Origin: Salinibacterium sp. UTAS2018
GTDB taxonomy: Bacteria > Actinomycetota > Actinomycetes > Actinomycetales > Microbacteriaceae
Direction: 5' to 3'
NCBI RefSeq assembly: GCF_004118935.1
Contig: NZ_CP035375.1
Span: 744,001-808,000, forward strand
Length of the DNA stretch: 64,000 bases
Shown: positions 20,362-37,973 of the stretch, one piece after another
Numbering within the stretch: the first letter of the stretch is position 1
Layout of the letters: every line of letters begins with the position of its first letter
Position numbers and translations under genes: made by a program
Notes under the pieces: model-generated
What the model was told of the DNA's origin: nothing
The model's input: only the letters and a program-made list of their open reading frames with translations
The model's database searches: none

Positions 20362-20417
20362 GTACCAATTGTCCCACGGCAAGCCTGAACCTTGCCGCAT
20401 CTACCGGGAGGCCCCGA

Positions 20418-20897: not shown

Positions 20898-21337
20898 TGG
20901 CCCTTGACGAGCATCCGAATGTCTTCCGGTTCGAAGCACGCTTGTGGGTCAGCCCCGCACCACGCGAAGAAGCGCTCGAGCAACTGCGAGCCCAACGGGC
21001 GTGGGACAAAGAGAATGCCCGGTTGCAACGGTGGTGGGTATCGCTCGCGATCGGAGCGGCGGTCGGCACTGCCGGAGTGCTCGCCGTCGGTTCGAGTGCG
21101 AACCTCGACCCCACGCTCTACCTGCTGCTATTGCCCGTCGGTTTCGGCGGCGGAGCCATCATCGGCGCGCTGATCAATAAACGCTTCAACGCACCGGATG
21201 CCCAGCATGCGTCCTTGCCCGCGCGCCCAACCACTGCGCCGCTCACGCTCATACCTTCGCGAGTCGCCAAAGCAGCGCCCGAACATGCGAGCGCTGCTGA
21301 ACTCATCGAATGGTCGAACCGCGGATTTGTGGGCTAG
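20897..21337 (+). CDS. Small membrane protein of unknown function
   Basis: 146 residues. The ATG shares a base with the stop of ybaK (TAATG), so translation is coupled. A cytoplasmic stretch rich in Glu/Arg (about 1-42) precedes two hydrophobic helices (WWVSLAIGAAVGTAGVLAV and LYLLLLPVGFGGGAIIGAL) and a polar tail. It is not recognised. The longer reading frame from 20819 is an artefact of overlap with ybaK. Confidence 0.75.
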   Translation: MALDEHPNVFRFEARLWVSPAPREEALEQLRAQRAWDKENARLQRWWVSLAIGAAVGTAGVLAVGSSANLDPTLYLLLLPVGFGGGAIIGALINKRFNAPDAQHASLPARPTTAPLTLIPSRVAKAAPEHASAAELIEWSNRGFVG

Positions 21338-21513
21338 ACGAGACCTTCGTCGATCTGACGGTTCACGAGAGCTTGCGAACGGTGATCATCCGCGACGATG
21401 CCACAGGCGTCGCCTTCGCACGCGATCGCGTTAGGGTCGCCGAGCTGTTGAAGGGCGAAGGTCGGAAGTGGCTTCGTTGCGGCATCCATTGCGTTACGCA
21501 TCTCTTTCGGTAA
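21310..21513 (+). CDS. Possible small ORF after the membrane protein gene
   Basis: 67 codons beginning inside the end of the previous gene. The middle part has a high-GC third position, which is mildly coding-like. No known domain is recognised with confidence, and no ribosome site is evident. It may simply be a spacer between convergent genes. Confidence 0.2.
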   Translation: MVEPRICGLDETFVDLTVHESLRTVIIRDDATGVAFARDRVRVAELLKGEGRKWLRCGIHCVTHLFR

Positions 21514-22159
21514 GTACTTGTGAGAGTACGTTAGCGAAGGTTTCACTTTCCTGCGCACCTGAAACCCCGTACTTGCCCTCGATAACGAAGAAAGGCACGC
21601 CTTGGATGCCATACTGCATCGCGGTTTCCATGTCGGCCTTCACCGCAGGAAGATACTCGTTCGACTCGAGAACGCGCACAACTTCGTCGCGATCGAAGCC
21701 GATGGAGGCCGCGATATCGGCTAGGTCGTCGACACGACCGACGTGCTCTGTCTTGACGAAGTACGCCTCAAGTAGGCGTTCCTTCATCTCAAGCTGACGG
21801 CCCTGAGCCTTCGCAAAGTGCAGAAGCTCGTGCGCCTTGATCGTGTTCGTCTGGTGAATGTGGTCGTAGTCGTAGTCGAGACCGAGGCTCGTGGCGATGT
21901 CAGTGACGCGCGTCAGCATCTCCTCGACCTGAGGCAGCGCCAAGCCCTTGCTCTCACTCAAAAACTGAGTGGGCGTGCCTTCGTACTCCACCGGGGTATC
22001 TGGCGCGAGTTCGAACGAGTGGTACTCGATGTCGACGGCGATGCCAGAGCTCTCCACAGCCGCTTCGAGCCTGCGCTTTCCGATGTAGCACCACGGGCAC
22101 TGAACATCAGACCAGATATCGATTTTGACAGGGGCAATCGGGTTTGCTGAATCATTCAC
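21494..22159 (-). CDS. DsbA-family (FrnE-like) thiol oxidoreductase
   Basis: 221 residues from GTG 22159. The thioredoxin-fold start VKIDIWSDVQCPWCYIGKRR carries the CPWC redox pair, and the C-terminal GVPFFVIEGKYGVSGAQ contains the cis-proline loop. The helical insert has AHELLHFAKAQG. There is no signal peptide, so it acts in the cytosol, as FrnE proteins do in oxidative stress. The reading frame extends to 22258, but that part lies over hairpin and repeat DNA and looks noncoding, so the inner GTG was chosen; the exact start is uncertain. Confidence 0.88.
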   Translation of the reverse strand: MNDSANPIAPVKIDIWSDVQCPWCYIGKRRLEAAVESSGIAVDIEYHSFELAPDTPVEYEGTPTQFLSESKGLALPQVEEMLTRVTDIATSLGLDYDYDHIHQTNTIKAHELLHFAKAQGRQLEMKERLLEAYFVKTEHVGRVDDLADIAASIGFDRDEVVRVLESNEYLPAVKADMETAMQYGIQGVPFFVIEGKYGVSGAQESETFANVLSQVLTERDA

Positions 22160-22220
22160 CTCAGCTTTAACGCCGGGGAGCGTGAAGTATTCCCTGGTCG
22201 CGTTCGTGAACGGCGCTGAC

Positions 22221-22250
22221 CGTCCCTGAGCGTCGCTGAGCGACGCTGAG
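22221..22250. repeat. Three 10-bp tandem repeats containing a 7-bp palindrome
   Basis: CGTCCCTGAG, CGTCGCTGAG and CGACGCTGAG follow each other. GCGTCGC-TGA-GCGACGC (22230-22246) is a perfect inverted repeat. It directly precedes copy A of the 90-bp inverted element. Confidence 0.8.
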
Positions 22251-22254
22251 CTTC

Positions 22255-22344
22255 GCAAACTCAGGAGATCTCCGATACTCAGCCCGAAGGCACCAGCATT
22301 CGCGGGCCCGATTTTCGCGGATGCACGGTATCTCCTGAGTATTC
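22255..22344. repeat. Inverted-repeat element, copy A (90 bp)
   Basis: The left end has AAACTCAGGAGAT (22257-22269) and the right end ATCTCCTGAGTATT (22330-22343). Both match the family consensus GGAAACTCAGGAGAT with changes only in the outer bases. An inner imperfect stem, GCATTCGCG with CGCGGATGC, is present. The last codons and stop of the AbiEi-like gene are inside this copy. Confidence 0.75.
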
Positions 22345-23208
22345 AAGGCTGGCAGACCTGGAGCGGCCGAGTGCACCCTCCAGAGCGCGCAGAAAAAGCT
22401 CCCATTGCCCGAAAACCATTGAGGCGCTCACACTCAGTGCGTGAAAGCCAGCGATCGTCATTTCGATCGCCTTCAGCCGGTCCTGCTCGAACGTGTGGGC
22501 ATGGAAACGTCGGCCGTCGACTTCGACTCCAATCACCCCATCCACCACCAAGTCGATCCTCTTGGCACCGACCGGAACCTGCAGCTCGACTCGATGCCCC
22601 CGCATGGTGAGCCGAGTGCGCGCAAGACTCTCGGGCAAACTCTCGCTTCGGGAATCCACCCAAGCGCGAATCGAACGTTTATGCCGAGGCAACGTGAGAA
22701 TTACCTGTTCAAAATCGAACTCGTCGATGCGCCCGGAGTGCAACGCCCAGTCAACAGCTGCAACGGCCGTCTCAAGACTCTCATCGACGATGACTCGTCT
22801 GAGTGCCTCAGCGACGCTCACATGCCACCGAGTTCCCCGATCACTGACTGCCGGTGAATCCCAGTGCAGCTTCACCCCGCGCGCTCCGCCCAACCGGCGC
22901 CGTCGGTTCCATGGGCTGCGCAATCGAGACGCGTTGCCGGGTACCGATACTTGGAGTGGATGCTCATCAAGAACCCAGCCACCCCAGTCGGCAATCGCCG
23001 AAATGCCGGTAAGGCGACCGCCGACTCGCACCGCTCTCACTCGCGGTTCCGACTCGTCCAAGGTGGTGTACCACCCCTGACGAGCCCGAAGAATCGTGCC
23101 CTGCCTGACTGCGCGAGTGAGATCGATATCTCGGACTCCTCGCGCAACCAGCTCGCGTTTCTGGGCAAGCCCACCAAGCTCATCTACCAATTCGCTGACA
23201 TCTACCAT
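22279..23208 (-). CDS. AbiEi-like antitoxin-domain protein with DUF559-like C-terminus
   Basis: 309 residues. The N-terminal 60 residues (LVDELGGLAQKRELVARG, then QGTILRARQGWYT) resemble the winged-helix domain of type IV antitoxin AbiEi. The C-terminal half holds RIDLVVDGVIGVEVDGRRFH, which resembles the DUF559/Vsr-like endonuclease fold (D..VE.DG.....). No AbiEii nucleotidyltransferase toxin lies beside it, so this is a solitary member; such proteins are common in Microbacteriaceae and their role is unknown. Inverted-repeat elements flank both sides, and the C-terminal approximately 21 residues are read from copy A. Confidence 0.75.
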   Translation of the reverse strand: MVDVSELVDELGGLAQKRELVARGVRDIDLTRAVRQGTILRARQGWYTTLDESEPRVRAVRVGGRLTGISAIADWGGWVLDEHPLQVSVPGNASRLRSPWNRRRRLGGARGVKLHWDSPAVSDRGTRWHVSVAEALRRVIVDESLETAVAAVDWALHSGRIDEFDFEQVILTLPRHKRSIRAWVDSRSESLPESLARTRLTMRGHRVELQVPVGAKRIDLVVDGVIGVEVDGRRFHAHTFEQDRLKAIEMTIAGFHALSVSASMVFGQWELFLRALEGALGRSRSASLEYSGDTVHPRKSGPRMLVPSG

Positions 23209-23305
23209 CAGAACAGCATCTTCGAGTGCGGGAGCTGAGCCCGCTGCTGCCCCACATCTGTTGACGAGTCGGCCGGACGGACGCTGTTGACGAGTTGTAA
23301 ACCTC

Positions 23306-23407
23306 GGAAATTCAGGAGATGCGTTCCGGCGAGTTCGTGGAAGGTCCGGAATCTCGTGGAGAGACTGCGAGGGTTACAACTCTCGAGCGCGGATCTCCTG
23401 AGTTTCC
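23306..23407. repeat. Inverted-repeat element, copy B (102 bp)
   Basis: Left end GGAAATTCAGGAGAT (23306-23320), right end ATCTCCTGAGTTTCC (23393-23407); 14 of 15 bases are complementary. It is 12 bases longer than copies A and C. An additional inverted pair, GTTGTAAACCTC outside and GAGGGTTACAAC inside, overlaps it. Confidence 0.8.
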
Positions 23408-23562
23408 GACGGTTGGCGCAGTTGGCGGCAGCCGAGAAAGAGCCTTGGCGGAAGAGAGCTGAGTTGCAGCGGAAGAGCGCTGAGTTGCAGCGGGAGAGAG
23501 ACCGTGATCGTGGCGAGCGCCGCGACAGGGAGGCAGGCACGTGGCAGCTGGCAGCTGCCCGC

Positions 23563-23676
23563 GGGCAGCGGGCAGCGGGCAGCGGGCAGCGGGCAGCAGG
23601 CAGCAGGCACGAGCACGGGCACGGGCACGGGCAGGGGCACGGGCACGGGCACGGGCACGGGCACGGGCACGGGCAC
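23563..23676. repeat. Short tandem repeats GCGGGCA and GGGCAC
   Basis: A heptamer GCGGGCA is repeated about five times, changes through GCAGGCA, and is followed by the hexamer GGGCAC repeated more than ten times with one interruption. It is noncoding and likely length-variable by replication slippage. Confidence 0.9.
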
Positions 23677-23680
23677 GAAA

Positions 23681-23712
23681 GAGCGGACCCGGAACGTGTT
23701 CCGGGTCCGCTC
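23681..23712 (-). terminator. Terminator of glyQS
   Basis: GAGCGGACCCGGAAC and its exact complement are separated by two bases (15-bp arms). On the minus strand, after the glyQS stop, it is followed by TTTCG. It is strong enough to stop transcription, though the T-run is short. Confidence 0.7.
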
Positions 23713-23769
23713 TACGCAGTACCCACTTTCAGCAAGCGACGTTGTCGGCCCTGCTGAAATTACAGCTCG

Positions 23770-25155
23770 CTAGCAGCCGATGAGCTCCTGCGCGAGGTAG
23801 CCACGCAGCTCTTCGATTGGCATGCGCTTCTGTTCCATCGTGTCGCGCTCACGGATCGTGACCGCGTTGTCGTCGAGCGAGTCGAAGTCGATCGTGACGC
23901 AGAACGGCGTGCCGATTTCGTCTTGACGACGGTAGCGACGACCGATAGCTCCGGCGTCGTCGAAGTCGACGTTCCAGTACTTGCGAAGATCAGCCGCAAC
24001 GCCCCGCGCCATCGGCGAGAGACGCTCGTTGCGCGACAGCGGCAAGACGGCAACCTTCACCGGCGAGAGACGACGGTCGAGGCGCAGAACGGTGCGCTTG
24101 TCGACGCCACCCTTCGCGTTGGGCGCTTCGTCTTCGGCGTAGGCGTCGATGAGGAACGCCATGAGCGCACGGGTGAGTCCGAACGCGGGTTCGATGACGA
24201 ACGGAGTCCAACGCTCGTCCTTGGCCTGATCGAAGTACGACAGGTCAGATCCGGATGCCTCGGAGTGCGTTCGTAGGTCGAAGTCGGTGCGGTTGGCGAT
24301 ACCCATGAGTTCGCCCCACTCGCTGCCGGCGAAGCGGAAACGGTACTCAACATCCACAGTGCGCTTGGAGTAGTGAGACAGCTTTTCTTGAGCGTGCTCG
24401 TAGAAGCGCAGGTTCTCTGGGTTGATGCCGAGGTCGGTGTACCACTTCATGGATTCGTCGATCCAGGTCTGGTGCCACTCTTCGTCGGTGCCGGGCTCGA
24501 CGAAGAATTCCATCTCCATCTGCTCGAATTCACGAGTACGGAAAATGAAGTTTCCGGGCGTGATCTCGTTACGGAACGACTTTCCGACCTGACCGATTCC
24601 GAAGGGCGGCTTCATGCGCGCCGCACCCATGACGTTGGCGAAGTTCGTGAAGATACCCTGAGCGGTTTCGGGGCGCAGGTAGTGCATGCCCTCTTCGTTG
24701 TCGACGGGGCCAAGGTAAGTCTTGAGCAAGCCGGAGAAGTTCTGCGGTTCGGTCCACGATCCGGGCTGACCGGTGTCAGGGTCGCGGATGTCGGCAAGCC
24801 CGTTCACGGGAGGGTGACCGTGCTTCTCTTCGTAGGCTTCGAGAAGGTGGTCGGCGCGGTAGCGCTTGTGGGTGTGCAGCGATTCCACGAGCGGGTCGGA
24901 GAAGACCTCGACGTGGCCAGATGCTTCCCACACCTTGCGAGGCAGGATGACGGCCGAGTCGAGCCCGACGACGTCTTCGCGACCTTGAACGAAGGTCTGC
25001 CACCACTGCTTTTTGATGTTCTCTTTGAGGGCGGTTCCCAGCGGGCCATAGTCCCAAGCTGAGCGTGAACCGCCGTAGATCTCTCCCGATTGGAAGACGA
25101 AACCTCGGCGCTTGGCGAGATTGATTACGGCGTCGAGGGGGTTAGGCGTAGCCAC
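23770..25155 (-). CDS. glyQS: Glycyl-tRNA synthetase, single-chain type
   Basis: 461 residues, the alpha2 class II enzyme used by Actinobacteria, not the alpha2beta2 form. Motif 1 region [18 protein letters not shown], motif 2 [19 protein letters not shown], motif 3 [10 protein letters not shown], and a C-terminal anticodon-binding domain ([12 protein letters not shown]...). It starts with GTG, seven bases after GGAG. It charges tRNA-Gly. Confidence 0.96.
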
Positions 25156-25211
25156 TTAAAACTCCAATAGTCAGCCGAGCTGGATGCACGGTCGGCGGAC
25201 GACCAGTTTAG

Positions 25212-26258
25212 CTAGCCGCGCAGCGCGGCGATAACCGCCGCGACGTCTTCTTCGGTATTCCAGAGGTGGAATGCGGCGCGAAGGCGACCGGCGCGACCGG
25301 AGGCCGTGATTCCTGCGGCCGCGAGCTTGGCAAGGTCGGCACCCGATTCATCCGGCCACGTGACGATGGCTTGATTCTGGCGCTCGATTCCGAGTTCATC
25401 GCAAAGCTGGTTGGCAAGCCCGGTGCAGTGCGCCCAGACTTCGGAAATGTCGAGGTCGGCGAACATGGCGATCGGATGCTCGGCTCCCACCCAGGCCTGC
25501 CAGGCGGGTGACACGTCGAACTGGCGAGCGTCTTTCGCGAGGTTCATCTCGGTGCCGTAGACGCTGCCCCAGACATCCTCTCCCGCATACCAGCCAGCTT
25601 GGACGGGCGTGATGTGCTCGGCGAAATCTTCGGAGATCGTGAGGAACGCGACGCCGCGCGGCGAGCACAGCCACTTGTAGGCGTGGCATACGGTCGCGTC
25701 GAATTGGCTGGCATCCACGGGGTGTACGCCCGCAGCTTGGGTCACGTCGCACAGCGTGCGAGTGCCATGAGTCGCGGCTGCCGCGAGAACAGCCGGGACA
25801 TCGGCGACCTTGCCGTTGCAGGATTGGATGAGCGAGAACGCGACGAGCGCAGTGCTGTCGGTAATGGCATCAGCGAGTTCGGCCAAGGGCACGGCGCGAA
25901 CGATGAGGTCGCGGTGTTGCAAGAACGGGAACACGATCGAGGTGAAGTCGGATTCGACGACGAGCACTTCGGAGCCGGCCGGCAGCGAGCAGGCGATGAG
26001 CGAGGCCATGACCGAGGTTTGCGATCCGATGGCGACGCGGCTGGCATCAACACCGACGAGACGGGCGTAGTGGCCGCGCGTGCGCTCGACGATGTCGCCG
26101 TAGTTCATGGGGTTGCACGTGGCAGTAGCCCACAGCTGGAGCTTCGTCGTCATCTCAGCGACTGCGGCGCAGGTCGGGAGCCCCATGGTGGCGGCAGAGA
26201 GGTAGCCGTGAGTGTTCGCAAAACTGTCGATTGCGTGTGCCAGCGCCGGGGAGGTCAT
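25212..26258 (-). CDS. Class V aminotransferase (kynureninase/selenocysteine lyase-like)
   Basis: 348 residues from ATG 26258. PLP enzyme of fold type I: the Schiff-base lysine is in VCHAYKWLCSPRGVAFL, and the aspartate that contacts the PLP ring is in TLCDVTQAAGVHPVD. The reaction is not known; PLP-dependent lyases and transaminases share this pattern. The frame extends to 26321 but ATG 26258 is preceded by GGGAG. It is divergent from a LysR regulator that probably controls it. Confidence 0.82.
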   Translation of the reverse strand: MTSPALAHAIDSFANTHGYLSAATMGLPTCAAVAEMTTKLQLWATATCNPMNYGDIVERTRGHYARLVGVDASRVAIGSQTSVMASLIACSLPAGSEVLVVESDFTSIVFPFLQHRDLIVRAVPLAELADAITDSTALVAFSLIQSCNGKVADVPAVLAAAATHGTRTLCDVTQAAGVHPVDASQFDATVCHAYKWLCSPRGVAFLTISEDFAEHITPVQAGWYAGEDVWGSVYGTEMNLAKDARQFDVSPAWQAWVGAEHPIAMFADLDISEVWAHCTGLANQLCDELGIERQNQAIVTWPDESGADLAKLAAAGITASGRAGRLRAAFHLWNTEEDVAAVIAALRG

Positions 26259-26302
26259 GTCTTCATACTCCCGCGCGCTCGATATATGCGACAAGGGCAT
26301 GA

Positions 26303-26340
26303 TTGAGATATAAACAATCACGTTTAGTTATACTCGCACG
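26303..26340. promoter_or_regulatory. LysR promoter and candidate LysR-type operator
   Basis: ATAAAC at 26310 and GTTTAGTTAT at 26322 form an imperfect inverted repeat of the T-N11-A kind, in an AT-rich patch unlike the surrounding DNA. TATACT (26329-26334) stands six bases before the LysR ATG, so the regulator could repress its own leaderless promoter and control the aminotransferase. Confidence 0.5.
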
Positions 26341-27291
26341 ATGGACACCACTCCAGACCTTCTCTCGCTGCGCATCGTCCGCGCGATATCCGAGCACGGC
26401 ACCATCAGCGAAGCCGCCCGCGTGCTCGGCTACAGCCAACCCGCCCTCAGCCAACACCTCACTCGCGCTCAGTCACGGCTGGGGCTCGCGCTCGTCGTGC
26501 GCTCGGGCCGCGGAGTGCGCCTGACCGAAGCGGGTCGTGCCCTTGCCAGTCATGCCGTCACGGTGCTCAATGCGGTGGATGCGGCGAGCGCCGAACTCGC
26601 AGAGCTAGCCGGCCTCTCGAGCGGCACGGTGCGCATCGCGGCTTTCCCGACGGCGTCGTCGACGCTCGTACCGCGGTTGATTCGTCAGTTGCGGCAGCAG
26701 CATCCGAATTTGACGGTGAACTATGTGGAGGCTGAGCCGCCTCAGGCGCTGCAGCTGCTGAGAGATGGCGCAGCGGATCTGGCAATTACGTTTTCGTACC
26801 CGGAGGACCGCGCCGACCCGCATTTGTCGCGCGATGGCGGCCACACCACCGTTCCCCTGTTTACCGAGCCTGTGGTGCTGGTGCTGCCCGACGCTCACCC
26901 CCTAGCCAAGGCGGACAGCGTGAGCCTGGCCGACCTTGCCAACGACGCGTGGATTGCGGGCTGCGCCCTCTGTCGCGGGCACTTACTCGCCCTGTGCAAT
27001 ATCGAGGGTTTTGCGCCCGAGATCGGGTTGGAGACGGATAATGCTCTCGCCGTACTGAGCTTTGTCTCCCGCGGACTGGGCGTTGCGCTCCTCCCCCAGT
27101 TGGCGTTGACCTCGCTGACGCTGCCGGAGGGTGTGAGCATCCATGCCCCGCAGCCGTCGAGTGAGCGCACGATTCAGTATGTGATTCAACCGGGGGCGAC
27201 GCGCATTCCTAGCGTGGCGACGACCATTGCGACGCTGACGGCGCTGGGTGGGGCCGCCTGGGGTCTGAAGGACTACCCCGCTCGGAGCTAG
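26341..27291 (+). CDS. LysR-family transcription regulator
   Basis: 316 residues. The N-terminal winged helix reads LRIVRAISEHGTISEAARVL followed by YSQPALSQHLTRAQSRLG; the effector domain starts near VRIAAFPTASSTLVP. It is usually a tetramer whose effector is a metabolite of the controlled pathway. It is divergent from the aminotransferase by 82 bases, which is the classic LysR arrangement. Confidence 0.92.
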   Translation: MDTTPDLLSLRIVRAISEHGTISEAARVLGYSQPALSQHLTRAQSRLGLALVVRSGRGVRLTEAGRALASHAVTVLNAVDAASAELAELAGLSSGTVRIAAFPTASSTLVPRLIRQLRQQHPNLTVNYVEAEPPQALQLLRDGAADLAITFSYPEDRADPHLSRDGGHTTVPLFTEPVVLVLPDAHPLAKADSVSLADLANDAWIAGCALCRGHLLALCNIEGFAPEIGLETDNALAVLSFVSRGLGVALLPQLALTSLTLPEGVSIHAPQPSSERTIQYVIQPGATRIPSVATTIATLTALGGAAWGLKDYPARS

Positions 27292-27322
27292 CAGCGGCTG
27301 GACCACGGATGCGCGGCGGGAG

Positions 27323-27352
27323 CGGGCAGCGGGTGCCCGGCCGGGCTGCCCG
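27323..27352. terminator. Hairpin between lysR and the cysteine desulfurase gene
   Basis: CGGGCAGC (27323-27330) pairs with GCTGCCCG (27345-27352). It lies between convergent genes and may end both transcripts; no T-run is present. Confidence 0.45.
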
Positions 27353-27377
27353 CGGCGGACTGCGGCGCGAGGCCGCG

Positions 27378-28616
27378 TTACTGCGAGAGTGAGCGCACCG
27401 CGCGGTAGGCGGTCTCGATCTCGGCAGCCACAGTGGCGAGCTGTTCGGCAGTCGTGTCACCGCTGAGGCTGAAGCGCACGGCGGTTTGAGCGATCGCTTC
27501 GTCGATCCCGAGCGCTGTGAGCACATGGGATACGTCGTCGCTGCCCACGGCACAGGCAGACCCTGCTGAGCAGATGATGCCGGCGCGGCCGAGTTCGAGC
27601 AGGAGCGATTCTCCACTCGTGCCGGGGAAGCAGAACGAGGCGTTGTTGGGGAGGCGGGTGGGTGCGGGGATCAGCGTGGGGGTTGCAGCATCGCCGTCGG
27701 TGGCAGCCTGCGCATCAGTCTGGGCGCCCGCGTGATCGTGATCGTGAGCGCCAGCCACGGCAGGCCCCGTAAAGATCGCGGCGGGAACACGCGCGAGCAC
27801 GTCGGCAACGAAGTCGTCGCGTAACTCGGCAACCGCGAGCGCCCGTGCGGCCCGATCGGTCTCGGCGAGCGCGAGAGCATGGGCGAATCCGACAGCGCCG
27901 GCAACGTTCTCCGTACCGGAGCGTTTTCCGCGCTCTTGGCCTCCGCCGTGCAACACGGGCTCGAGGCTGCGTCGCCCCTTGACCATCAGCACGCCAATAC
28001 CTTTGGGCGCGCCGAGCTTGTGTCCCGACAGGCTCAGGGCATCGACGCCCAGCCCGGCAACGTCGAGAGCCAGCCAGCCGGCAGCTTGAACGGCATCCGT
28101 GTGCAGCGGCACCCCCACGGCGCGGCACAGTTCGGCGAGCGCCGCGATCGGCTGCACCGCACCGATCTCGTTATTGGCGTACATGACGGTGCAGAGCGTG
28201 GTGTCGGGGCGCAGGGCCTCCCGCGCGTCATCGAGCGAGATCAGTCCCTCGGCGTTCACCGGCAACACGGTGATTTCGAAACCATGAATACGCGCGAGAT
28301 AGTCAACGGATTCCAGCACCGCCTCGTGCTCGATCGCACTCGTGACGATGTGGCGCCCTCGCGGTTCGGCGAGCGCGAGGCCCTTGATGGCGAGGTTGTC
28401 TGACTCCGTGCCACCCGACGTGAATACGACATCGGATGCCCGGCACCCCAGCGACGCGGCGACACTCTTGCGGGCGGCATCCAGGGCACGCTTCGCGGAC
28501 TCCCCCAACTCATGGTGGCTGGACGGGTTACCGAAGTCTCCCGTGAGCAGCGGCCACATCGCTTCGAGCACCTCACGGCGCACGGGTGTCGTGGCGGCGG
28601 AGTCGAGAAAGATCAT
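27378..28616 (-). CDS. Cysteine desulfurase (NifS/IscS-like)
   Basis: 412 residues, PLP enzyme that moves sulfur from cysteine to a persulfide. PLP lysine Lys200 is in LSGHKLGAPKG and the active cysteine Cys355 in CSAGSACAVG. A 30-residue insert at about 288-320, rich in His, Asp, Ala and Gln (AHDHDHAGAQT...), is absent from most homologues and looks low-complexity. It is last in the nrtR-nadA-nadB-nadC operon (four-base overlap with nadC) and very likely supplies sulfur for the 4Fe-4S cluster of NadA. Confidence 0.92.
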   Translation of the reverse strand: MIFLDSAATTPVRREVLEAMWPLLTGDFGNPSSHHELGESAKRALDAARKSVAASLGCRASDVVFTSGGTESDNLAIKGLALAEPRGRHIVTSAIEHEAVLESVDYLARIHGFEITVLPVNAEGLISLDDAREALRPDTTLCTVMYANNEIGAVQPIAALAELCRAVGVPLHTDAVQAAGWLALDVAGLGVDALSLSGHKLGAPKGIGVLMVKGRRSLEPVLHGGGQERGKRSGTENVAGAVGFAHALALAETDRAARALAVAELRDDFVADVLARVPAAIFTGPAVAGAHDHDHAGAQTDAQAATDGDAATPTLIPAPTRLPNNASFCFPGTSGESLLLELGRAGIICSAGSACAVGSDDVSHVLTALGIDEAIAQTAVRFSLSGDTTAEQLATVAAEIETAYRAVRSLSQ

Positions 28617-29473
28617 GAGCTGACGGCACTCACCGCAATGTCGAGACCGAGGTCGAGCGAGCGGACACTGTGCGTGAGGGCACCTACCGAGATGACATCG
28701 ACACCGGTGGCAGCAATCGCCGCAATGGTGTCGAGGTTCACGCCTCCGCTGGCCTCGACGATCGCGCGGCCGGCCACGAGCTCGACGCCGGCCCGCAGAT
28801 CATCGAGCGAGAAGTTGTCGAGCATGATCGTGTCGACCCCCGCCGCGACAACAGTCTCAACCTGGTCGAGACGGTCGACTTCGACCTCGAGGTGCGTGGT
28901 GTGACCGATACGGGCACGAGCGAGACGAATGGCTTCTCCCAGATCGATACCGGCGGCTGCGAGCACCGCGAGGTGATTGTCTTTAGCCATTACGGCATCC
29001 GAGAGACTGAAGCGGTGGTTGTGGCCCCCGCCCGAGCGCACAGCGTGACGTTCGAGAGCCCGGAGCCCGGGCGTTGTCTTACGGGTATCGACTACCCGCG
29101 CGTGCGTGCCGGCCACTTGCGCGACGTAGGCCGCAGTCTGCGTGGCGATGCCCGACATCCGCTGGCTGAGGTTGAGTGCGATGCGCTCCGCCCGCAGAAC
29201 GGCACGCGCGTTACCGGAGACCGAAGCGAGTTGCTGGCCGGCGGCGAACGAGTCACCATCACTGGCCTGCAGCGTGACCTCGGCCTGGGCATCCACCAGC
29301 TGGAAGGTGCGAGCGAAGACGTCGAGGCCACTAGCGACCCCGGCTTCACGGGCATTGAGCACAGCGGTGGCGGTGGCGTCTTCCGGCACAAAGGCATCGC
29401 TCGTTACGTCACCCCAGGGCGCATCTTCGGCGAGGGCCATCAGGATGACATTGTCGACGAGCTGCTGATTCAT
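28613..29473 (-). CDS. nadC: Quinolinate phosphoribosyltransferase
   Basis: 286 residues. It makes nicotinate mononucleotide from quinolinate and PRPP. Conserved positions include RIALNLSQRMSGIATQT, VVDTRKTTPGLRALER, SGGGHNHRFSLSDAVMAKDNH and the C-terminal EASGGVNLDTI. It overlaps nadB by four bases and the desulfurase by four bases. Confidence 0.96.
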   Translation of the reverse strand: MNQQLVDNVILMALAEDAPWGDVTSDAFVPEDATATAVLNAREAGVASGLDVFARTFQLVDAQAEVTLQASDGDSFAAGQQLASVSGNARAVLRAERIALNLSQRMSGIATQTAAYVAQVAGTHARVVDTRKTTPGLRALERHAVRSGGGHNHRFSLSDAVMAKDNHLAVLAAAGIDLGEAIRLARARIGHTTHLEVEVDRLDQVETVVAAGVDTIMLDNFSLDDLRAGVELVAGRAIVEASGGVNLDTIAAIAATGVDVISVGALTHSVRSLDLGLDIAVSAVSS

Positions 29474-31053
29474 CGGGTTGCCGTTTCTGCTCGATCGTGT
29501 GAGGTCATACCATCTTCTGCGGGGATGAAGTCGCCCGCAACGTTGACTGCCGCCCAGCGCGTGGAAAACGCGAGCTCTTCGCGGGTCTCCGGGTAGTCAG
29601 TGCGCTCGTGGGCTCCGCGAGATTCCTGACGGCGGAGCGCTGCGACAACCACGAGGCGAGCAAGGTCGAGCAGGTTCGCGTTTTCCGCGCCCTCGACGGT
29701 GTTCGACTCAGAGTGCCAACTGGCGAGGATCGCAGATGCTTCTTCCAGACGCGTCGCATCACGCTCAAGTCCGACGTGGCTCCACATGAGTTCGCGCAGC
29801 TGATCGCGAGTGAATGCTTCTTTGCCGGTGATCTCGAACTGCGGCTCGAGCGCGTCAACCTCGATGGCTCGCTGGGGTTCGTTGAGAGCATCCGCAGCAC
29901 GCCAGGCGAAGACGAGCGATTCGAGCAATGAGTTGGAGGCCAAGCGGTTAGCGCCATGCACACCGGTGCAGGATGCTTCCCCAACGGCATAGAGACCACG
30001 CACGCTTGTGCGGCCATCAATGTCGGTGCGGATGCCGCCCATCCAATAGTGCGCTGCCGGCGTCACCGGAATAGGTTCAGTGCCCCAGTCGAAGCCGTGC
30101 TCTTCGCAGACCTCGGTGATGCCGGGGAAACGCTTCGCGAGAAACTCGGCACCGAGGCCCGTGGCATCGAGCATGATGGGCCGGCCACCCTGCTTTTCCA
30201 TGGCGCGAGCAATACCGCGGGCGACGACATCGCGCGGGGCGAGTTCGCCATCGGGGTGCACGTCGAACATGAAGCGCTTACCGTGCTCATCGAGCAGTGT
30301 TGCGCCCTCGCCGCGAACCGCTTCCGAGACGAGAGGGTTGCCGGGCACCGCAAGCGACGTCGGGTGAAACTGGAAGAATTCGACATCGGCCAGAGCGGCA
30401 CCGGCGCGGTAGGCAGCGGCCACCCCGTCGCCCGTCGTGACAAACGGGTTCGTCGTGTGCTTGTAGAGCTGGCCGGCTCCGCCACTGGCTAGAACGACGA
30501 TGTCGCCGTCGATCACGCGCGAGTTGCCGTCAGGAGCAATGACGTCGATGCCGGTGACGCGCGGCGTGCCGTCGGCATCCGTCTCGGTCACCAGATCGCG
30601 CATGAAGGTGTAGGCGTAGGTCTCTACCGCTAGAGCCTTGACCGCGCGCAAGAGTGCAACCTCGATCGCAAGCCCCGTGGCATCTCCGCCGGCGTGGATG
30701 ACGCGCCGCGACGAGTGCGCCGCTTCGTGTCCCCGAGCAAGCTCACCGTTGGCGATGCGGTCGAATTCCACCCCGAGTGAGATGAGTTCTTGCACACGCA
30801 GCGGGCCTTCGCTGCACAACACTTCAACGGCATCCCGCTCGCACAGTCCCGCGCCCGCGATCATCGTGTCGGAGACGTGACTGGCGACGGTGTCATCAGG
30901 GAAGAGCACCGCGGCGATGCCGCCCTGGGCGTACTTGGTGTTGCTCTCAGCAAGCTCCGACTTGGTCACGAGAACCACTTCGTGGTGAGCACTGGCGCGG
31001 TAGGCGGTAATGAGCCCAGCGATACCGGTACCAACAACAATGACCCGTGCCAT
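29470..31053 (-). CDS. nadB: L-aspartate oxidase
   Basis: 527 residues. Flavoenzyme that turns aspartate into iminoaspartate for NadA. N-terminal FAD motif VVGTGIAGLITAYRA, then ESNTKYAQGGIAAV, HSSRRVIHAGGDATG, and the active region PVTPAAHYWMGGIRTDIDGRTS. A C-terminal helical domain follows. It starts two bases after the nadA stop. Confidence 0.96.
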   Translation of the reverse strand: MARVIVVGTGIAGLITAYRASAHHEVVLVTKSELAESNTKYAQGGIAAVLFPDDTVASHVSDTMIAGAGLCERDAVEVLCSEGPLRVQELISLGVEFDRIANGELARGHEAAHSSRRVIHAGGDATGLAIEVALLRAVKALAVETYAYTFMRDLVTETDADGTPRVTGIDVIAPDGNSRVIDGDIVVLASGGAGQLYKHTTNPFVTTGDGVAAAYRAGAALADVEFFQFHPTSLAVPGNPLVSEAVRGEGATLLDEHGKRFMFDVHPDGELAPRDVVARGIARAMEKQGGRPIMLDATGLGAEFLAKRFPGITEVCEEHGFDWGTEPIPVTPAAHYWMGGIRTDIDGRTSVRGLYAVGEASCTGVHGANRLASNSLLESLVFAWRAADALNEPQRAIEVDALEPQFEITGKEAFTRDQLRELMWSHVGLERDATRLEEASAILASWHSESNTVEGAENANLLDLARLVVVAALRRQESRGAHERTDYPETREELAFSTRWAAVNVAGDFIPAEDGMTSHDRAETATR

Positions 31054-31055
31054 AC

Positions 31056-32345
31056 TTACGCCTCTTTCGTCGTTACCGGTGGCTTCGCGGCGAGCATCCG
31101 CTCCAAGGCCACGCGTGCCGGTGCTGCCACATCATCGGCGACAGTGATTTGGTTGAGAACTTCGCCGCGCACAAGGCCCTCAAGAACCCACGCGAGATAG
31201 CCAGGGTGAATGCGGTACATCGTCGAGCAGGGGCACACCACAGGGTCGAGGCAGAAGATGGTGTGCTGCGGATACTCGGCCGCGAGACGGTTGACCATGT
31301 TGATCTCGGTGCCGATCGCGAACGTTGTCGGTTCGGTTGCCGCCGCTACAGCCTTCTGGATGTAGTCGGTCGACCCTGCCTCGTCAGCGGCATCCACGAC
31401 GGGCATCGGGCACTCGGGGTGCACGATTACGCGAACACCGGGGTGCTCGGCGCGGGCCTGCTCGATCTGGCCAACATTGAAGCGCTTGTGAACGCTGCAG
31501 AAGCCGTGCCAGAGCACAACCTTTGCCTCGTTGAGCGTCTCGGCGTCATTGCCGCCGAGAGGCTTGTTGGGATTCCACATCGGCATGAGATCGGTGGAGA
31601 TCCCCATCTTCTTTGCTGTGTTGCGCCCGAGGTGCTGGTCGGGGAAGAACAGCACGCGCTGACCGCGCTCGTACGCCCACTCGAGAACAGTCGTTGCGTT
31701 CGAGCTCGTGCAGACGATGCCGCCGTTACGACCGCAGAAGCCCTTGAGCGCTGCCGAAGAGTTCATGTAGGTCACGGGGATGATCGGCACGCGGCCATCA
31801 GCATCCGGTTCGGTTCCGTAGATCTCGGTGAGCTGTTCCCAGCACTCTTCTACCGAGTCGATGTCGGCCATGTCGGCCATCGAACAACCGGCGGCGAGGT
31901 TCGGCAGGATCACAGCTTGGTCCTCGCGAGCCAGGATGTCAGCCGTCTCAGCCATAAAGTGAACGCCACAGAACACGATCGCTTCGGCGTTCGGCACGGT
32001 CTGCGCCGCGTTGGCGAGCTGGAAGGAATCGCCGAGGAAATCAGCGTGCTGCACAACCTCATCCCGCTGGTAGAAGTGCCCAAGCACAACCGCGCGGTCA
32101 CCTAACGTGGCCTTGGCCGCGACGATACGAGCGTGCAGATCTTCGTTCGAGGCCTTCTGGTATTCCAGTGGCAACTGTCCCTGGCGGGGTGCGCCCGTGG
32201 GAATCACATCGCCCATGGATGCTCCGGGGCCGTAGCTCGGAACCCCCAGGTCGAACGTCCAGGGCCCGTCGGCCAGCTCAGGCGCACAGGTTTCCCCGTC
32301 GCCCGTCGCAGTGATGCGCTGAATGGTCGAATCAATGGATGACAC
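31056..32345 (-). CDS. nadA: Quinolinate synthase
   Basis: 429 residues, the larger actinobacterial type. It condenses iminoaspartate with dihydroxyacetone phosphate using a 4Fe-4S cluster. Cluster cysteines and active-site parts are in NSSAALKGFCGRNGGIVCTS and LDPVVCPCSTMYRI, with VFCGVHFMAETADIL and VHPECPMPVV. It overlaps the regulator nrtR by 14 bases and is co-transcribed. Confidence 0.96.
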   Translation of the reverse strand: MSSIDSTIQRITATGDGETCAPELADGPWTFDLGVPSYGPGASMGDVIPTGAPRQGQLPLEYQKASNEDLHARIVAAKATLGDRAVVLGHFYQRDEVVQHADFLGDSFQLANAAQTVPNAEAIVFCGVHFMAETADILAREDQAVILPNLAAGCSMADMADIDSVEECWEQLTEIYGTEPDADGRVPIIPVTYMNSSAALKGFCGRNGGIVCTSSNATTVLEWAYERGQRVLFFPDQHLGRNTAKKMGISTDLMPMWNPNKPLGGNDAETLNEAKVVLWHGFCSVHKRFNVGQIEQARAEHPGVRVIVHPECPMPVVDAADEAGSTDYIQKAVAAATEPTTFAIGTEINMVNRLAAEYPQHTIFCLDPVVCPCSTMYRIHPGYLAWVLEGLVRGEVLNQITVADDVAAPARVALERMLAAKPPVTTKEA

Positions 32346-33048
32346 GAGTGCTCCCTGTCTTGAGGTGGCCGAGAGGGCCGTTGTCGACGAGCTCTACGCC
32401 CTCGTCATAGCGGTACAGCCTCGGAGGCCGGTGGCGCCCTCCCGAGACAACGTGGTCAGTGGGAACCAGTGAACCTGAATTCTCGATCTGACGACGGAAG
32501 TTGGCGGGGTCGAGTTGCTTCTGCAACACAGCCTCGTGCACGATGCGCAGTTCACTGAGGGTAAAAGTCTCGCCCAGGAATGCCCGAGCGATGCGCGAGT
32601 ACTCCATCTTGGTGCGCAGACGCCAGAGCGCATAGTCGACAATCACGTTGTGGTCGAAGGCCAGTTCAGGAAGGTTATCCGCGGGGAACCAGCGCACGTT
32701 CTCTCCCTCAGTGGCACGATCAGCCTCTTCTTGACGCACGAGTGCCCAATAGACGACCGATACTGCGCGGCCACCGATGGAACGCTCCACATCGCCGAAC
32801 GCGTAGAGCTGTTCGAGGTACGCGGGCTCAAGCGCCGTGGTCTCCAGCAGATTGCGGGCCGCGGCATCCGCGAGACTTTCGTCGTTGCCGACCCAGCCTC
32901 CGGGCAACGCCCACTGGCTGGCATACGGCTCGCGGGTGCGGCGCACGAGCGGGATCCACAGGGCACTCTCACCCGATTCGGGAATGGGACGCAGCGCGAA
33001 AATCACGGTTGATACCGCGAGCGAGATTGTTTGTTCGCTCTGCTCCAT
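32332..33048 (-). CDS. nrtR: NrtR-type Nudix transcription regulator of NAD synthesis
   Basis: 238 residues. The N-terminal Nudix fold contains WALPGGWVGNDESLADAAAR, but the REUxEE core is degenerate (RNLLET), so it should bind ADP-ribose without cleaving it. The C-terminal winged helix (TLSELRIVHEAVLQKQLDPANFRRQI) is that of NrtR repressors. It heads nadA-nadB-nadC. The ATG 33048 has GGGAG seven bases upstream; the TTG at 33063 is not used. Two GTCA-N3-TGAC palindromes lie in the promoter. Confidence 0.93.
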   Translation of the reverse strand: MEQSEQTISLAVSTVIFALRPIPESGESALWIPLVRRTREPYASQWALPGGWVGNDESLADAAARNLLETTALEPAYLEQLYAFGDVERSIGGRAVSVVYWALVRQEEADRATEGENVRWFPADNLPELAFDHNVIVDYALWRLRTKMEYSRIARAFLGETFTLSELRIVHEAVLQKQLDPANFRRQIENSGSLVPTDHVVSGGRHRPPRLYRYDEGVELVDNGPLGHLKTGSTRVIH

Positions 33049-33076
33049 CGCCACTCCCTTCAACTATTCAGTAAGA

Positions 33077-33124
33077 GTCATGCTGACCTGAACACAGAAT
33101 ACACCTTAAAGTCAGGCTGACCAA
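33077..33124 (-). promoter_or_regulatory. Promoter and two candidate NrtR operators of the nad operon
   Basis: On the minus strand TTGGTC (33119-33124) and TATTCT (33096-33101) are separated by 17 bases, a good sigma-70 type promoter. Palindromes GTCAGGCTGAC (33111-33121) and GTCATGCTGAC (33077-33087) differ at one base, share flanking bases and have centres 34 bp apart. One covers the -35/spacer, the other lies just beyond the -10. This is a repressor layout. Confidence 0.7.
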
Positions 33125-33172
33125 AAGGACGCCGACGACATGATGCGGGCGGGGCAAACCCGCAAGAATGAG

Positions 33173-33985
33173 CTACTCAGCTGTAGCCGTTGGCGCGTCT
33201 ACGGCGCCTCCGAACCGACGTGACCGACTCGCGTAAATGCGAATCGCTTGCCACAGGTCTTCACGCGTGAAATCAGGCCAGAGCGTGTCGAGGAAAACCA
33301 TCTCGGCATACGCGCTCTGCCAGGGCATGAAGTTGCTCATCCGCTGCTCCCCCGACGACCGCACAAACAGGTCAACATCGGGCAGCTGCGGTTGATACAG
33401 GCGCTTCTGGATGAGCTTCTCTGAGACCGCAGACGGCTTCAGCTTGCCTGCCGCAACTTCATCGGCAATCGAGCGCACGGCATCCGCAATTTCAGTGCGG
33501 CCACCGTAATTCACGCACATAGTGAGAGTAATGGTGCTGTTGTTCTCAGTCAGCTTCTCGGCGAATTGCAGCTCTTTGATCACCGAGGTCCACAAGCGCG
33601 GGCGTCGCCCCGCCCAGCGCACACGCACTCCCCACTCGTTGAGCTGATCACGCCGACGGTGCAGTACGTCGCGGTTGAAGCCCATGAGAAAGCGAACCTC
33701 CTCGGGCGATCGACTCCAATTTTCGGTTGAAAACGCATAAACACTGATGTGTTTGACACCGATTTGGATAGCACCGGCCACGACATCGAGCAGGCTCGCC
33801 TCGCCTGCCTTGTGACCCTCCACGCGCGTCAGGCCGCGCGCGTTGGCCCAGCGTCCATTGCCGTCCATGACGAGAGCAATGTGTTCGGGAACAGACCCCT
33901 TAGGCATCGCTGGCGGGTGGATGCCTGTCCAATCAAGAGGACGAAATTCCACAGCATCTTTGTGAGTTTTCCCTACGCGGCTCAT
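33173..33985 (-). CDS. uppS: Isoprenyl (undecaprenyl) diphosphate synthase
   Basis: 270 residues, cis-prenyltransferase. It makes the C50/C55 lipid carrier for cell wall synthesis. The metal-binding [19 protein letters not shown] and [17 protein letters not shown] are diagnostic, as are VRFMGF-like and [20 protein letters not shown]. It starts inside the end of recO (four-base overlap), a conserved actinobacterial pair. Confidence 0.95.
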
Positions 33986-34710
33986 GCGCTCCGATCCACA
34001 TGCTGAATGGAGCGAAGACTGCGCTCCAAATGAAACTGGGTGTACGCGGCAACAACACCGCTAGCTTGGGAGCGTGATCGCTCATCAGATGCCTCAGCGA
34101 CATCCCACTGACCGGCAAGTAACGCGCCGAGCAGTTCGAGGGTCGCCGGACTCAGTCGCGGTGAACCGGGCGGGGCAACCTCATCGGCGACCACGCCACC
34201 CATCTGCGCGACGAAGACGGAATGCGGCCCCGGAGCACCGGTCACCGCACAATCAACAAAGCTCGGGGCCCAACCGGCGATCGAGAGGCTCCGCAAGAGG
34301 TAGGAGTCGAGCGTCAGGCTCGGATTGTGCTCGCGCCGCGAAAGAGAACGCAATGCACCCACCAGCAAGAGATATTGCTGAAGCGAGCCGTCGTCATCCG
34401 TAACTTTGTCCGCCGTTTCGACCATCACACTTGCGGCGGTGTAGCTCGCGTAATCGGCCGTGATGTCCGAGCCATAGGAACCAAGGGACTCCGCCTGCTG
34501 GATGATATCGAGGCTGCGACCGATATAGCACTGGATGTCGGCGACCATGAAGGGTTCCAACCGTGACCCAAACTTCGAGGCTGTGCGACGCACGCCCTTA
34601 GCCACCGCCCGGATTTTTCCGTGCTCACGCGAGAGCATCGTCACGATGCGGTCAGCTTCACCCAACTTGTGGGTGCGCAGCACGACAGCTTCATCACGAT
34701 AGGTAGGCAC
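33982..34710 (-). CDS. recO: DNA repair protein RecO
   Basis: 242 residues from GTG 34710, the usual length. The OB-fold N-terminus reads [20 protein letters not shown]. RecO loads RecA with RecF/RecR and anneals single strands. The frame is open to 34890, but the extra 60 residues fall on repeat DNA (including inverted element C) and are rejected. GATACT stands six bases before the GTG. Confidence 0.93.
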
Positions 34711-34772
34711 CTCCCAAGTATCCTCCGGTTGTCGCGAGTTTGCTGTGCGACGGCCCGCGCCAACTCCGTTTC

Positions 34773-34832
34773 GCTGAGCGCCCTGCCCGCCGGCTGAGCA
34801 CCCTGCCCGCGCGCTGAGCAGCTCGCACGCCC
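34773..34832. repeat. 20-bp tandem repeat, three copies
   Basis: Units GCTGAGCGCCCTGCCCGCCG, GCTGAGCACCCTGCCCGCGC and GCTGAGCAGCTCGCACGCCC are consecutive; the third is diverged. They lie between recO and inverted element C. Confidence 0.8.
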
Positions 34833-34846
34833 GTTTGCTCCCCTTC

Positions 34847-34936
34847 GGAAACTCAGGAGAATCGCGTGCGTCGAAGGAAAGATGACCCATTCACCCGCCC
34901 CGGCGGCGGCTGCAGGTCTGTTTCTCCTGAGTTTCC
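34847..34936. repeat. Inverted-repeat element, copy C (90 bp)
   Basis: Left end GGAAACTCAGGAGAA (34847-34861) and right end TTCTCCTGAGTTTCC (34922-34936) are perfect complements. The match goes on outward (CCCTTC and GAAGGG, with one extra base). Confidence 0.85.
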
Positions 34937-35093
34937 AGAAGGGAGCACGGGCGCTCTCCCTGCGGAACCCCACTCAGCGCACGATGACGCCGAGCACGTC
35001 GCCGCACAACATGTCCCACAGTGCGTGCGCAGCGCGCATCGCCCCTCGACCTGCCCTGCAGGGCGCGCGCACCGCACCGGACCGGAGCCTCAC

Positions 35094-35184
35094 GGAAATT
35101 CAGGAAATCGCCGCGCTGCGCACAACGCCGAGGCCGGATCCGGTGCACCCCAGACATCCGCTGCCCCCGATCTCCTGAGTTTTC
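35094..35184. repeat. Inverted-repeat element, copy D (91 bp)
   Basis: Left end GGAAATTCAGGAAAT (35094-35108), right end ATCTCCTGAGTTTTC (35170-35184); 12 of 15 bases are complementary. The interior does not resemble the other copies. Confidence 0.75.
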
Positions 35185-35390
35185 GACGTCTGCCTCGACG
35201 ACGACGCCGGCACGTTCACGTTCACGTTCAGAACGTCAGGAACAGCGGCAGGGCAAGCAACTGATCTAGGGACAGGAACAGGGCTAGGGGCAGGGCGCGG
35301 ACGCGGAGCAAACGCGCGAGTTGCTCGGAGATCGCAGGCTTGCCCGGAGCGCAACTGCGCTGCGCGCATCACGCGTGGTACGAATGGTTC

Positions 35391-36047
35391 GTGAACGAGA
35401 CTTTCGAGATTCCGCTCTGGGCGGGGCTGCTAGCGGTCGGCGTCGGCGCCATGCAGGGTGCGATGTTCGCGGCCCAGTTTCGGGACCGCCGCCTTGACCT
35501 TCTCGGCGTCGCGATCATCGGACTAGCGTCAGGGTTCGGCGGCGGCATCGTGCGCGACGTCGTGCTCTCTGAAGTCCCCGCAGTGCTCACCACCAACTGG
35601 TATCTCATCGTCGCCACCGGGGCCGCACTGTTCGGGATGCTGCTCGAGCGACTGATCGCACGGATGGGTCCGGTCATCACGGTTCTTGACGCTCTCACCA
35701 TTGGGCTCTTCGGCGCGATCGGTACGACGAAGGCACTTGCCATGGGACTCCCCGAGGTGCCGGCCATTTTCGTCGGCGCTATCTCGGGCGTCGGCGGTTC
35801 GATCCTGCGGGACATGCTTCTTTCAATGCCCATCGCCCTCATGCACGTGGGGTCGCTGTATGCGGTGGCGGCGGTATCGGGCGCGACGAGTCTCGTCATC
35901 ATGCGCAACTTCGACGTTCCGGTATTCGTGGCGGCCTCAATCTGTGTGGGCATCACCGTCGGCGTTCGGGTTCTTTCGGTGCTCTTCAACTGGACTCTGC
36001 CGGAGCAACGCACGATCAATCGTCTGCCCAGGTTCCGCCGCCCCTAG
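35391..36047 (+). CDS. TRIC/UPF0126-family membrane protein
   Basis: 218 residues from GTG 35391. Seven helices in two homologous halves, each with the glycine-rich motif: GFGGGIVRDVVL in the first and GVGGSILRDMLL in the second. This is the trimeric intracellular cation channel family; bacterial members conduct K+ or other small ions, though the physiological role is uncertain. The frame goes back to 35340, but the extra residues show no conserved pattern. Confidence 0.85.
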   Translation: MNETFEIPLWAGLLAVGVGAMQGAMFAAQFRDRRLDLLGVAIIGLASGFGGGIVRDVVLSEVPAVLTTNWYLIVATGAALFGMLLERLIARMGPVITVLDALTIGLFGAIGTTKALAMGLPEVPAIFVGAISGVGGSILRDMLLSMPIALMHVGSLYAVAAVSGATSLVIMRNFDVPVFVAASICVGITVGVRVLSVLFNWTLPEQRTINRLPRFRRP

Positions 36048-36106
36048 CTCGCCGCTGGGCCCTCGCCGCTGAGTCTTCTCCCCTACGTCCTCGCCGCTCA
36101 CTCCTC
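36048..36106. repeat. CCTCGCCGCT direct repeats
   Basis: The word CTCGCCGCT or CCTCGCCGCT occurs at 36048, 36061 and 36089, and as CCTCGCCGC at 36103, just after the TRIC-like gene. No function is evident. Confidence 0.7.
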
Positions 36107-36132
36107 GCCGCAGCTGCCGTTAACGAACAAAC

Positions 36133-36159
36133 GCCCCACAGCTCAGCGAGCTGCAGGGC
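36133..36159 (-). terminator. Terminator of leuA
   Basis: GCCCCACAGCTC (36133-36144) pairs with GAGCTGCAGGGC (36148-36159) with one or two mismatches. On the minus strand GTTTGTTCG follows. Confidence 0.65.
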
Positions 36160-36176
36160 ATTTGCGAAAGCTGAAA

Positions 36177-37973
<1,797 letters not shown>

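Follow-up and report, generated by a model that had tools for sequence, protein, structure and literature searches.

In this study, we analysed four inverted-repeat elements in a 64,000-nucleotide stretch of the genome of Salinibacterium sp. UTAS2018 (hereafter the window; C1:744001-808000 of the 2,995,446-bp host genome). They are probably the bipartite sites of a DNA-binding nuclease that is encoded between the first two of them, gene and sites together forming a single-gene cassette resembling a homing element or an insertion sequence (IS). Judged from genome comparisons, this reading appears to be carried by cognate sites on both sides of the gene, covariation between the half-site spelling and its presumed reader, stepped spacings, free interiors, satellite sites that depend on a flanked gene, and an allele without the unit. 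The elements and the cognate gene are the following:

22255..22344, downstream flanking site, 90 bp, overlapping the final 66 bp of the cognate gene
22279..23208, minus strand, cognate gene (309 amino acids), between the two flanking sites
23306..23407, upstream flanking site, 102 bp, 97 bp ahead of the start codon of the cognate gene
34847..34936, satellite site 1, 90 bp, between recO and a TRIC-type gene
35094..35184, satellite site 2, 91 bp, 157 bp away from satellite site 1

The four elements lie where the initial annotation had placed them, and their lengths (90, 102, 90 and 91 bp) were confirmed. It had put the divergence of the half-sites from their consensus at zero to about three bases, which was right in that the divergence is small and too high in the upper value, as the eight half-sites have 1, 2, 1, 0, 1, 1, 2 and 1 mismatches to GGAAACTCAGGAGAT (i.e., 0-2); satellite site 1 has the variant GGAAACTCAGGAGAA in both of its half-sites. 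The half-sites are commoner than chance: at ≤ 3 mismatches to GGAAACTCAGGAGAT the window contains exactly these eight, versus 1.2 expected (0 of 100 shuffles reached eight), and the paired pattern TCAGGARA-N55-85-TYTCCTGA occurs at six places in the whole genome (control, 0), four of them being the window elements and the others 1546609-1546707 and 1546835-1546934. This second tandem pair (1546603-1546940; 111 and 112 bp) is situated between a DEAD-box helicase gene and a DUF4916 gene, and is kept with similar interiors in genome G197 (699338-699756).

The cognate protein consists of an AbiEi-antitoxin-like winged-helix module (residues 1-185) followed by a Vsr/EDxHD-type nuclease (residues about 186-291). 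The Vsr-like fold with its E, D, H and D residues is present in the protein family and the active-site residues are kept; we take these conserved residues to correspond to the EDxHD motif. Homologs of this protein type (MTES_1575/DUF559 with AbiEi) were found in 105 of 150 genomes of the family and in 186 of 246 genomes of the class.

Relatives of the gene are bracketed by sites of their own. In the 27 genomes of the genus, all 14 orthologs with ≥ 60% identity have GGAAAYTCAGGA palindromes on both sides, and the two farther orthologs (57% and 56%; L068, L069) are without them. A de novo search of gene flanks, made without knowledge of the window sequence, asked whether palindromes stand to the left and right of a gene and have their half-sites in common (12-mers, ≤ 2 mismatches per palindrome, length 58-125; longer or weaker sites escape). 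By this search, 26 of 29 loci in the genus were bracketed, with spellings that differ between paralogs (e.g., GTCCAATTCGAC, CGCAACTCATGG, CCCGTTTCTCAG, CGAAATGCAGGA). In the family set, which includes the genus loci, 85 of 117 qualified (≤ 4 mismatches in 48), compared with none of 117 when their far flanks were used and 42 of 250 among mixed loci, many of which have a spelling in common. In the class-level set, 33 of 69 loci were bracketed (26 of the 60 outside the family), with 0/69 for far flanks and 0/200 for mixed loci. Loci were drawn from the top of homology lists and not at random, one genome standing for each species, and the 118 flanked loci represent 117 genes, since L399 and L193 are the same gene (G078). 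Flanks of tlyA and of TRIC, used as controls, gave 0/25 each. When 20-kb regions around ten genes of nine other spellings were searched, cognate sites were present at the gene in all ten, and in seven regions they were the only two; L366 and L367, which have one spelling, contained one further site each about 7 kb off, and L362 contained extra right half-sites. Shuffled half-sites gave no sites in these ten regions, nor did the half-sites of the other nine loci, except for L366 and L367 reciprocally and for two near spellings (half-sites of L369 in L363 and of L368 in L369, two places each).

The sites have a preferred spacing, as the initial annotation had suggested, and it is sharper than was seen there. 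Among the matches listed, 152 distinct sites with exact 12-bp ends measured 79-81 bp (66), 89-93 bp (71), 100-103 bp (14) or 83 bp (1), i.e., their length steps at about 80, 91 and 102 bp, with a best period of about 11 bp in these matches (R 0.895; null maximum 0.353; 0.876 for 10.5 bp). The left and right sites of one gene are equally long in 72 of 118 cases and 1-2 bp apart in 22, while the remaining 24 pairs differ by ≥ 10 bp, mostly near multiples of 10.5-11 (exceptions 13 and 15); differences of 3-9 bp do not occur, and none of 20,000 random sets was as good. We take this quantisation as the mark of duplex DNA in which the two half-sites would have to face the same way. The interior is free apart from a weak central CCCG-N6-CGGG symmetry in the 91-92-bp class. 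It forms no hairpin (folding z -0.04), symmetric pairing past position 22 being near the null (0.333 vs 0.310, 0.341 vs 0.310 and 0.242 vs 0.296); positions 13-21 pair above the between-genome null because the spelling is lineage-specific. In two site-rich genomes, the left and right halves of one site showed no consistent covariation at positions 13-24, with positions 19-20 of Galbitalea somewhat above the null (0.55/0.37, 0.59/0.39). Turnover of interiors by replacement was considered for sister species and rejected: in the only pair close enough (L055/L056), identity is 95% and 91% in the interiors and 90% and 95% in the flanks, therefore the interior drifts like its surroundings in that one pair. 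With conserved half-sites, a free interior, helical spacing and a bracketed helix-turn-helix nuclease gene, the suggestion in the initial annotation of a site bound or cut by a protein is well supported at the sequence level.

The spelling points to the module that may read it. Across 72 loci, half-site similarity correlated with identity of the winged helix (Spearman 0.47; permutation maximum 0.18) and with that of the remaining part of the AbiEi-like module (0.41; permutation maximum 0.16). For 2042 pairs with nuclease identity < 0.45, the values were 0.32 for the winged helix, 0.26 for the rest of the module and 0.00 for the nuclease, the last one a soft result, as such a cut restricts how far nuclease identity can vary. 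Half-site spelling follows the AbiEi-like module more closely than it does the nuclease, which points to the AbiEi-like module as the likely reader of the half-sites. The inverted repeats bound by AbiEi and Rv2827c in their own promoters are 23 bp long and paired, with a spacing of 3 or 13 bp (PMC7319586). By analogy with these, we infer that the sites described here may extend the same spacing ladder.

Gene and both sites behave as a discrete unit of about 1.1 kb that is present or absent. In G416, whose left and right sites (60 bp) are identical but for one position, a 1096-bp segment (L426:1342-2437) contains both sites and the gene and ends 36 and 17 bp beyond the two sites; in G502, only 7 bp separate the flanking genes and there is no cognate site, the flanks of the two genomes being about 81-83% identical, which blurs the exact boundary. 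Other genomes of the same genus have short intervals at this place too (e.g., G575, G593, G539), several carry other sequence of 0.6-3 kb, and G516 has a partial match to the cassette gene itself. At the place occupied in the window, between glyS and dsbA, G199 and G213 have a cassette of another spelling, and G216 and G214 only 103 and 80 bp. The glyS-dsbA cassette is old, with glyS and/or dsbA as its neighbours in many genera. The idea of a fast-decaying mobile element in the initial annotation is not supported for the satellites (see below); presence or absence concerns the site-gene-site unit. In some cassettes, the left and right sites share their interior (median identity of interiors, 64%), either in direct orientation (L449, L073, L426, L458 and L182; 96-100% identical) or inverted (L220, L423 and L415; 81-86%), and past the palindrome the similarity is lost within a few to about 15 bp. 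Both orientations would be explained if sequence were copied from one site to the other, e.g., during repair of an interior cut, while duplication at insertion would explain the direct ones only.

The second pair in the window belongs to a group of satellite sites. A cognate site at the TRIC locus was found in 12 of the 14 genus genomes with a flanked cognate gene (11 on the recO side and one, G221, downstream of TRIC) and in none of 12 other genomes (10 without ortholog, two with an unflanked one), the genome groups being partly clades and thus not independent events; 20 scrambled half-sites gave no site in 27 loci. A satellite pair comparable to that of the window is present in G082 (L118), and homologs of the TRIC-type gene were found in 26 of 27 genus genomes. 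G213, which is without the GGAAAYTCAGGA gene, has a palindrome beside TRIC (L136, 2524-2612) in the CGAAATGCAGGA spelling of its own paralog L082, i.e., a satellite with a different specificity stands close to this gene. Site places were listed for part of 15 genomes. In Lacisediminihabitans changchengi (G224), 13 of 14 strict sites lie within about 43 kb around the gene (C1:631953-675153) in a genome of 3.4 Mb, in Galbitalea (G222) a single 308-kb contig carries 22 of 23, around the gene (C12:134050-263293), and in S. sedimenticola (G223) eight are scattered across the genome, including two at the gene. Repeated copying of entire elements was rejected as an explanation for the satellites of Galbitalea and L. 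changchengi, as their interiors are unrelated, with the exception of one tandem duplication that also covers the flanks. In Glaciihabitans relatives, a satellite is located inside a TlyA-like gene (S4 and FtsJ domains) and its interior is native coding sequence. Compared with 27 site-free homologs from the genus, this protein has no indel relative to 25; one homolog is without one codon, and the most similar (L397, 73%) is without two codons, which fall at the right half-site. Insertion of a 102-bp element therefore does not account for this site, which arose largely in place. Sites with exact ends also occur inside very long open reading frames (ORFs), namely SMC genes (L247, L290) and a DUF3418/helicase gene (L334), thus sites in genes are not limited to tlyA.

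The strict pattern gave 20 of 199, a lower bound, because many spellings escape it, and a scan of species genomes gave at least 120 stretches with sites in the genera Salinibacterium, Glaciihabitans, Lacisediminihabitans, Galbitalea and Rhodoglobus. In G068, G132, G134 and G187 (L045-L048), extra internal TCAGGA and GGCGTGTC motifs stand in regular register (87-101 bp by pattern), with 11 matches of this kind in G068 alone, which suggests a more complex site type. Short tandem repeats are found beside or near the sites at both window loci (22214-22256, 23543-23677 and 34772-34820; units CGCTGAGCGT x4.3, GGCAGC-type x20 and the 20-mer CGCTGAGCACCCTGCCCGCC x2.5), and GCTGAGC recurs adjoining both the 22255 and the 34847 site.

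For the mechanism, we propose that the outer inverted half-sites, each of about 12-22 bp, would be bound by two protomers via their AbiEi-like modules. The half-sites would face the same side of the duplex, with permitted lengths stepping by about one helical turn and the interior sequence free, and the Vsr/EDxHD nuclease domains may then act on the DNA in between. Dimerisation and cutting are thus presumed along with binding, as is movement of homing or IS type driven by break repair. Site, gene and site would form a self-contained cassette of roughly 1.1 kb, common in the class of the host, with its own spelling for each protein lineage and gained or lost as a unit; that between glyS and dsbA would be a long-term resident, and the second pair in the window would be its satellites, i.e., extra binding sites seen only where the flanked cognate gene is present. 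More tentatively, a broader claim can be put forward, namely that the cassettes may represent a large undescribed actinobacterial class of one-gene mobile elements, each made of an AbiEi-derived reader, a Vsr/EDxHD nuclease and two sites of its own. Reader and spelling would co-diversify into dozens of specificities, the nuclease would cut inside the sites, and repair from the sister site would copy interiors in either orientation and spread both the cassette and its local satellites.

The main alternative, which we consider unlikely but the most serious, is that the sites are autoregulatory operators with a small regulon, the AbiEi-like module repressing its own gene by looping the flanking sites together, the satellites regulating neighbours such as recO or TRIC, and the nuclease being secondary. 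Several observations favour it: AbiEi and Rv2827c have their repeat pairs in their own promoters (PMC7319586), looping typically goes with helical phasing, the upstream site precedes the homologous segment by 58-180 bp (median 108) in 111 of 118 flanked loci, and the satellites stay at a conserved place. Confidence in the cassette reading is also slightly tempered by the correlation of half-site similarity with the nuclease domain across the 72 loci, which is weak rather than absent (0.19, equal to the largest of 300 permutations), and by the difference between G416 and G502, which is compatible with gain or loss, given the short intervals, the other sequences and the partial match in G516. 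Against the regulator reading, simple autoregulation has no need of a further complete site where the gene ends (3'), the active-site residues are kept, and presence or absence concerns the cassette as a whole. Moreover, the 152 sites have no fixed relation to promoters; by crude ORF calls, they lie between co-directional (59), convergent (29) or divergent (18) ORFs, inside ORF calls (35) or in undetermined contexts (11), and placement as promoters or terminators was rejected on this mixed context. A function as RNA or terminator was likewise dismissed, as an Rfam search of 20000-37000 gave no match and the interiors of the larger site set are without structure, for which reason the folding z-scores of the four window elements reflect their half-site arms.

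A self/non-self or addiction system, in which the nuclease is titrated or restrained by the sites, or resident DNA is marked by them, loss of sites or cassette exposes the cell and clusters protect the surrounding segment, is in our view improbable. The clustering around the gene in L. changchengi and Galbitalea, the long persistence at one locus and the membership of AbiEi in toxin-antitoxin systems would fit it, but seven of ten other loci have nothing beyond the flanking pair in 20 kb, the satellites of G223 are dispersed, and PADLOC gave only weak AbiEi matches for four proteins. REPIN/RAYT-type miniature mobile DNA, i.e., hairpins copied and moved by a tyrosine transposase, shares the outline of two conserved inverted ends, a length-constrained spacer and a partner gene near the copies (PMC3116915), yet is very improbable and largely refuted, since Y1_Tnp (PF01797) was found in 0 of 12 genomes (controls positive, 5/14), interiors neither fold nor covary consistently, the TlyA-like site arose without insertion, and satellite interiors are unrelated within each of two genomes apart from the tandem duplication. 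For the satellites, the fast-decaying miniature inverted-repeat or REP-like element of the initial annotation is not supported, also in view of the drift of interiors along with their neighbours in L055/L056; its advice to search for a partner enzyme was sound, the partner being a Vsr-like nuclease instead of a RAYT.

The genes around the cassette and the satellite pair are:

21494..22150, minus strand, DsbA-like gene, next to the cassette on its downstream side (Pfam match for the longer ORF 21494-22258)
23770..25155, minus strand, presumed glyS, upstream neighbour of the cassette (Pfam class II tRNA synthetase domains)
33982..34890, minus strand, recO, adjoining the satellite pair (Pfam RecO_N, RecO_C)
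35340..36047, plus strand, TRIC/glycine-transporter-like gene, adjoining the satellite pair (Pfam Gly_transporter PF03458)

The name glyS was assigned by eye, and the gene at 35340..36047 is here called TRIC. The true start of recO is probably near 34710, in which case satellite site 1 would lie upstream of it. At the window locus, no toxin gene adjoins the cognate gene, its neighbours being DsbA-like and GlyS-like in a conserved context. NCBIfam gave no match for four proteins, plasmid and phage collections contained no match to the window protein, and among the matches listed by Foldseek and VIA-align none spans both modules, which is not evidence of a new fold.

With these results, a DNA target, a geometry and a mechanism open to testing can be attached to a very widespread protein type of unassigned function. 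Since every flanked gene is accompanied by its own target, reader specificities can be read from genomes in bulk, and the flanked genes provide a natural collection of nucleases whose half-sites are paired and whose spacers are free, a geometry comparable to that of engineered dimeric nucleases. That sites crowd around the gene in some genomes may be relevant to the way in which segments of the chromosome are shaped by selfish or protective elements.

No described system known to us or found in a literature search combines these parts; the search gave no paper tying DUF559 or AbiEi nucleases to flanking palindromes, most subscription papers and preprints being beyond its reach. The EDxHD homing endonuclease I-Bth0305I reportedly resides in a phage intron and cuts the intronless allele. 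It has the same Vsr-like fold with E, D, H and D residues (PMC3943268; PDB 3r3p). The gene described here, by contrast with the intron-borne one, stands alone in bacterial chromosomes, has two complete sites beside it and encodes an AbiEi-like module. REPIN-RAYT systems of Pseudomonas and others (PMC3116915) are alike in having a gene with cognate paired inverted sequences and further pairs in the genome, a spacer fixed in length and not in sequence, and partner-specific groups. They differ in that the enzyme here is an unrelated Vsr-like nuclease, with no Y1 tyrosine transposase found in the 12 genomes, and in that the sites have helical spacing, no hairpin signal, few satellites (one of them arisen in place) and a spelling that diversifies with the DNA-binding module. 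With the AbiE type IV toxin-antitoxin system (AbiEi/Rv2827c; PMC7319586; PDB 6y8q), the N-terminal 185 residues share the AbiEi-type DNA-binding module, and the sites share the use of inverted-repeat pairs, the spacings of the two described proteins being 10 bp apart; here, however, the module is fused to a nuclease, the neighbours are glyS and dsbA and not a DUF1814 (AbiEii) toxin, and the sites are two-sided and longer-spaced. Likewise, the cassette resembles single-gene insertion sequences in having one gene between two ends and an allele without the unit. These consist of one gene between two recognition ends, while in the cassette both ends are complete bipartite palindromes, which have direct orientation in the five left-right pairs of greatest similarity, the protein is without a known transposase domain and no target duplication is defined. 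The system could also be classed by a specialist among the selfish nuclease elements.

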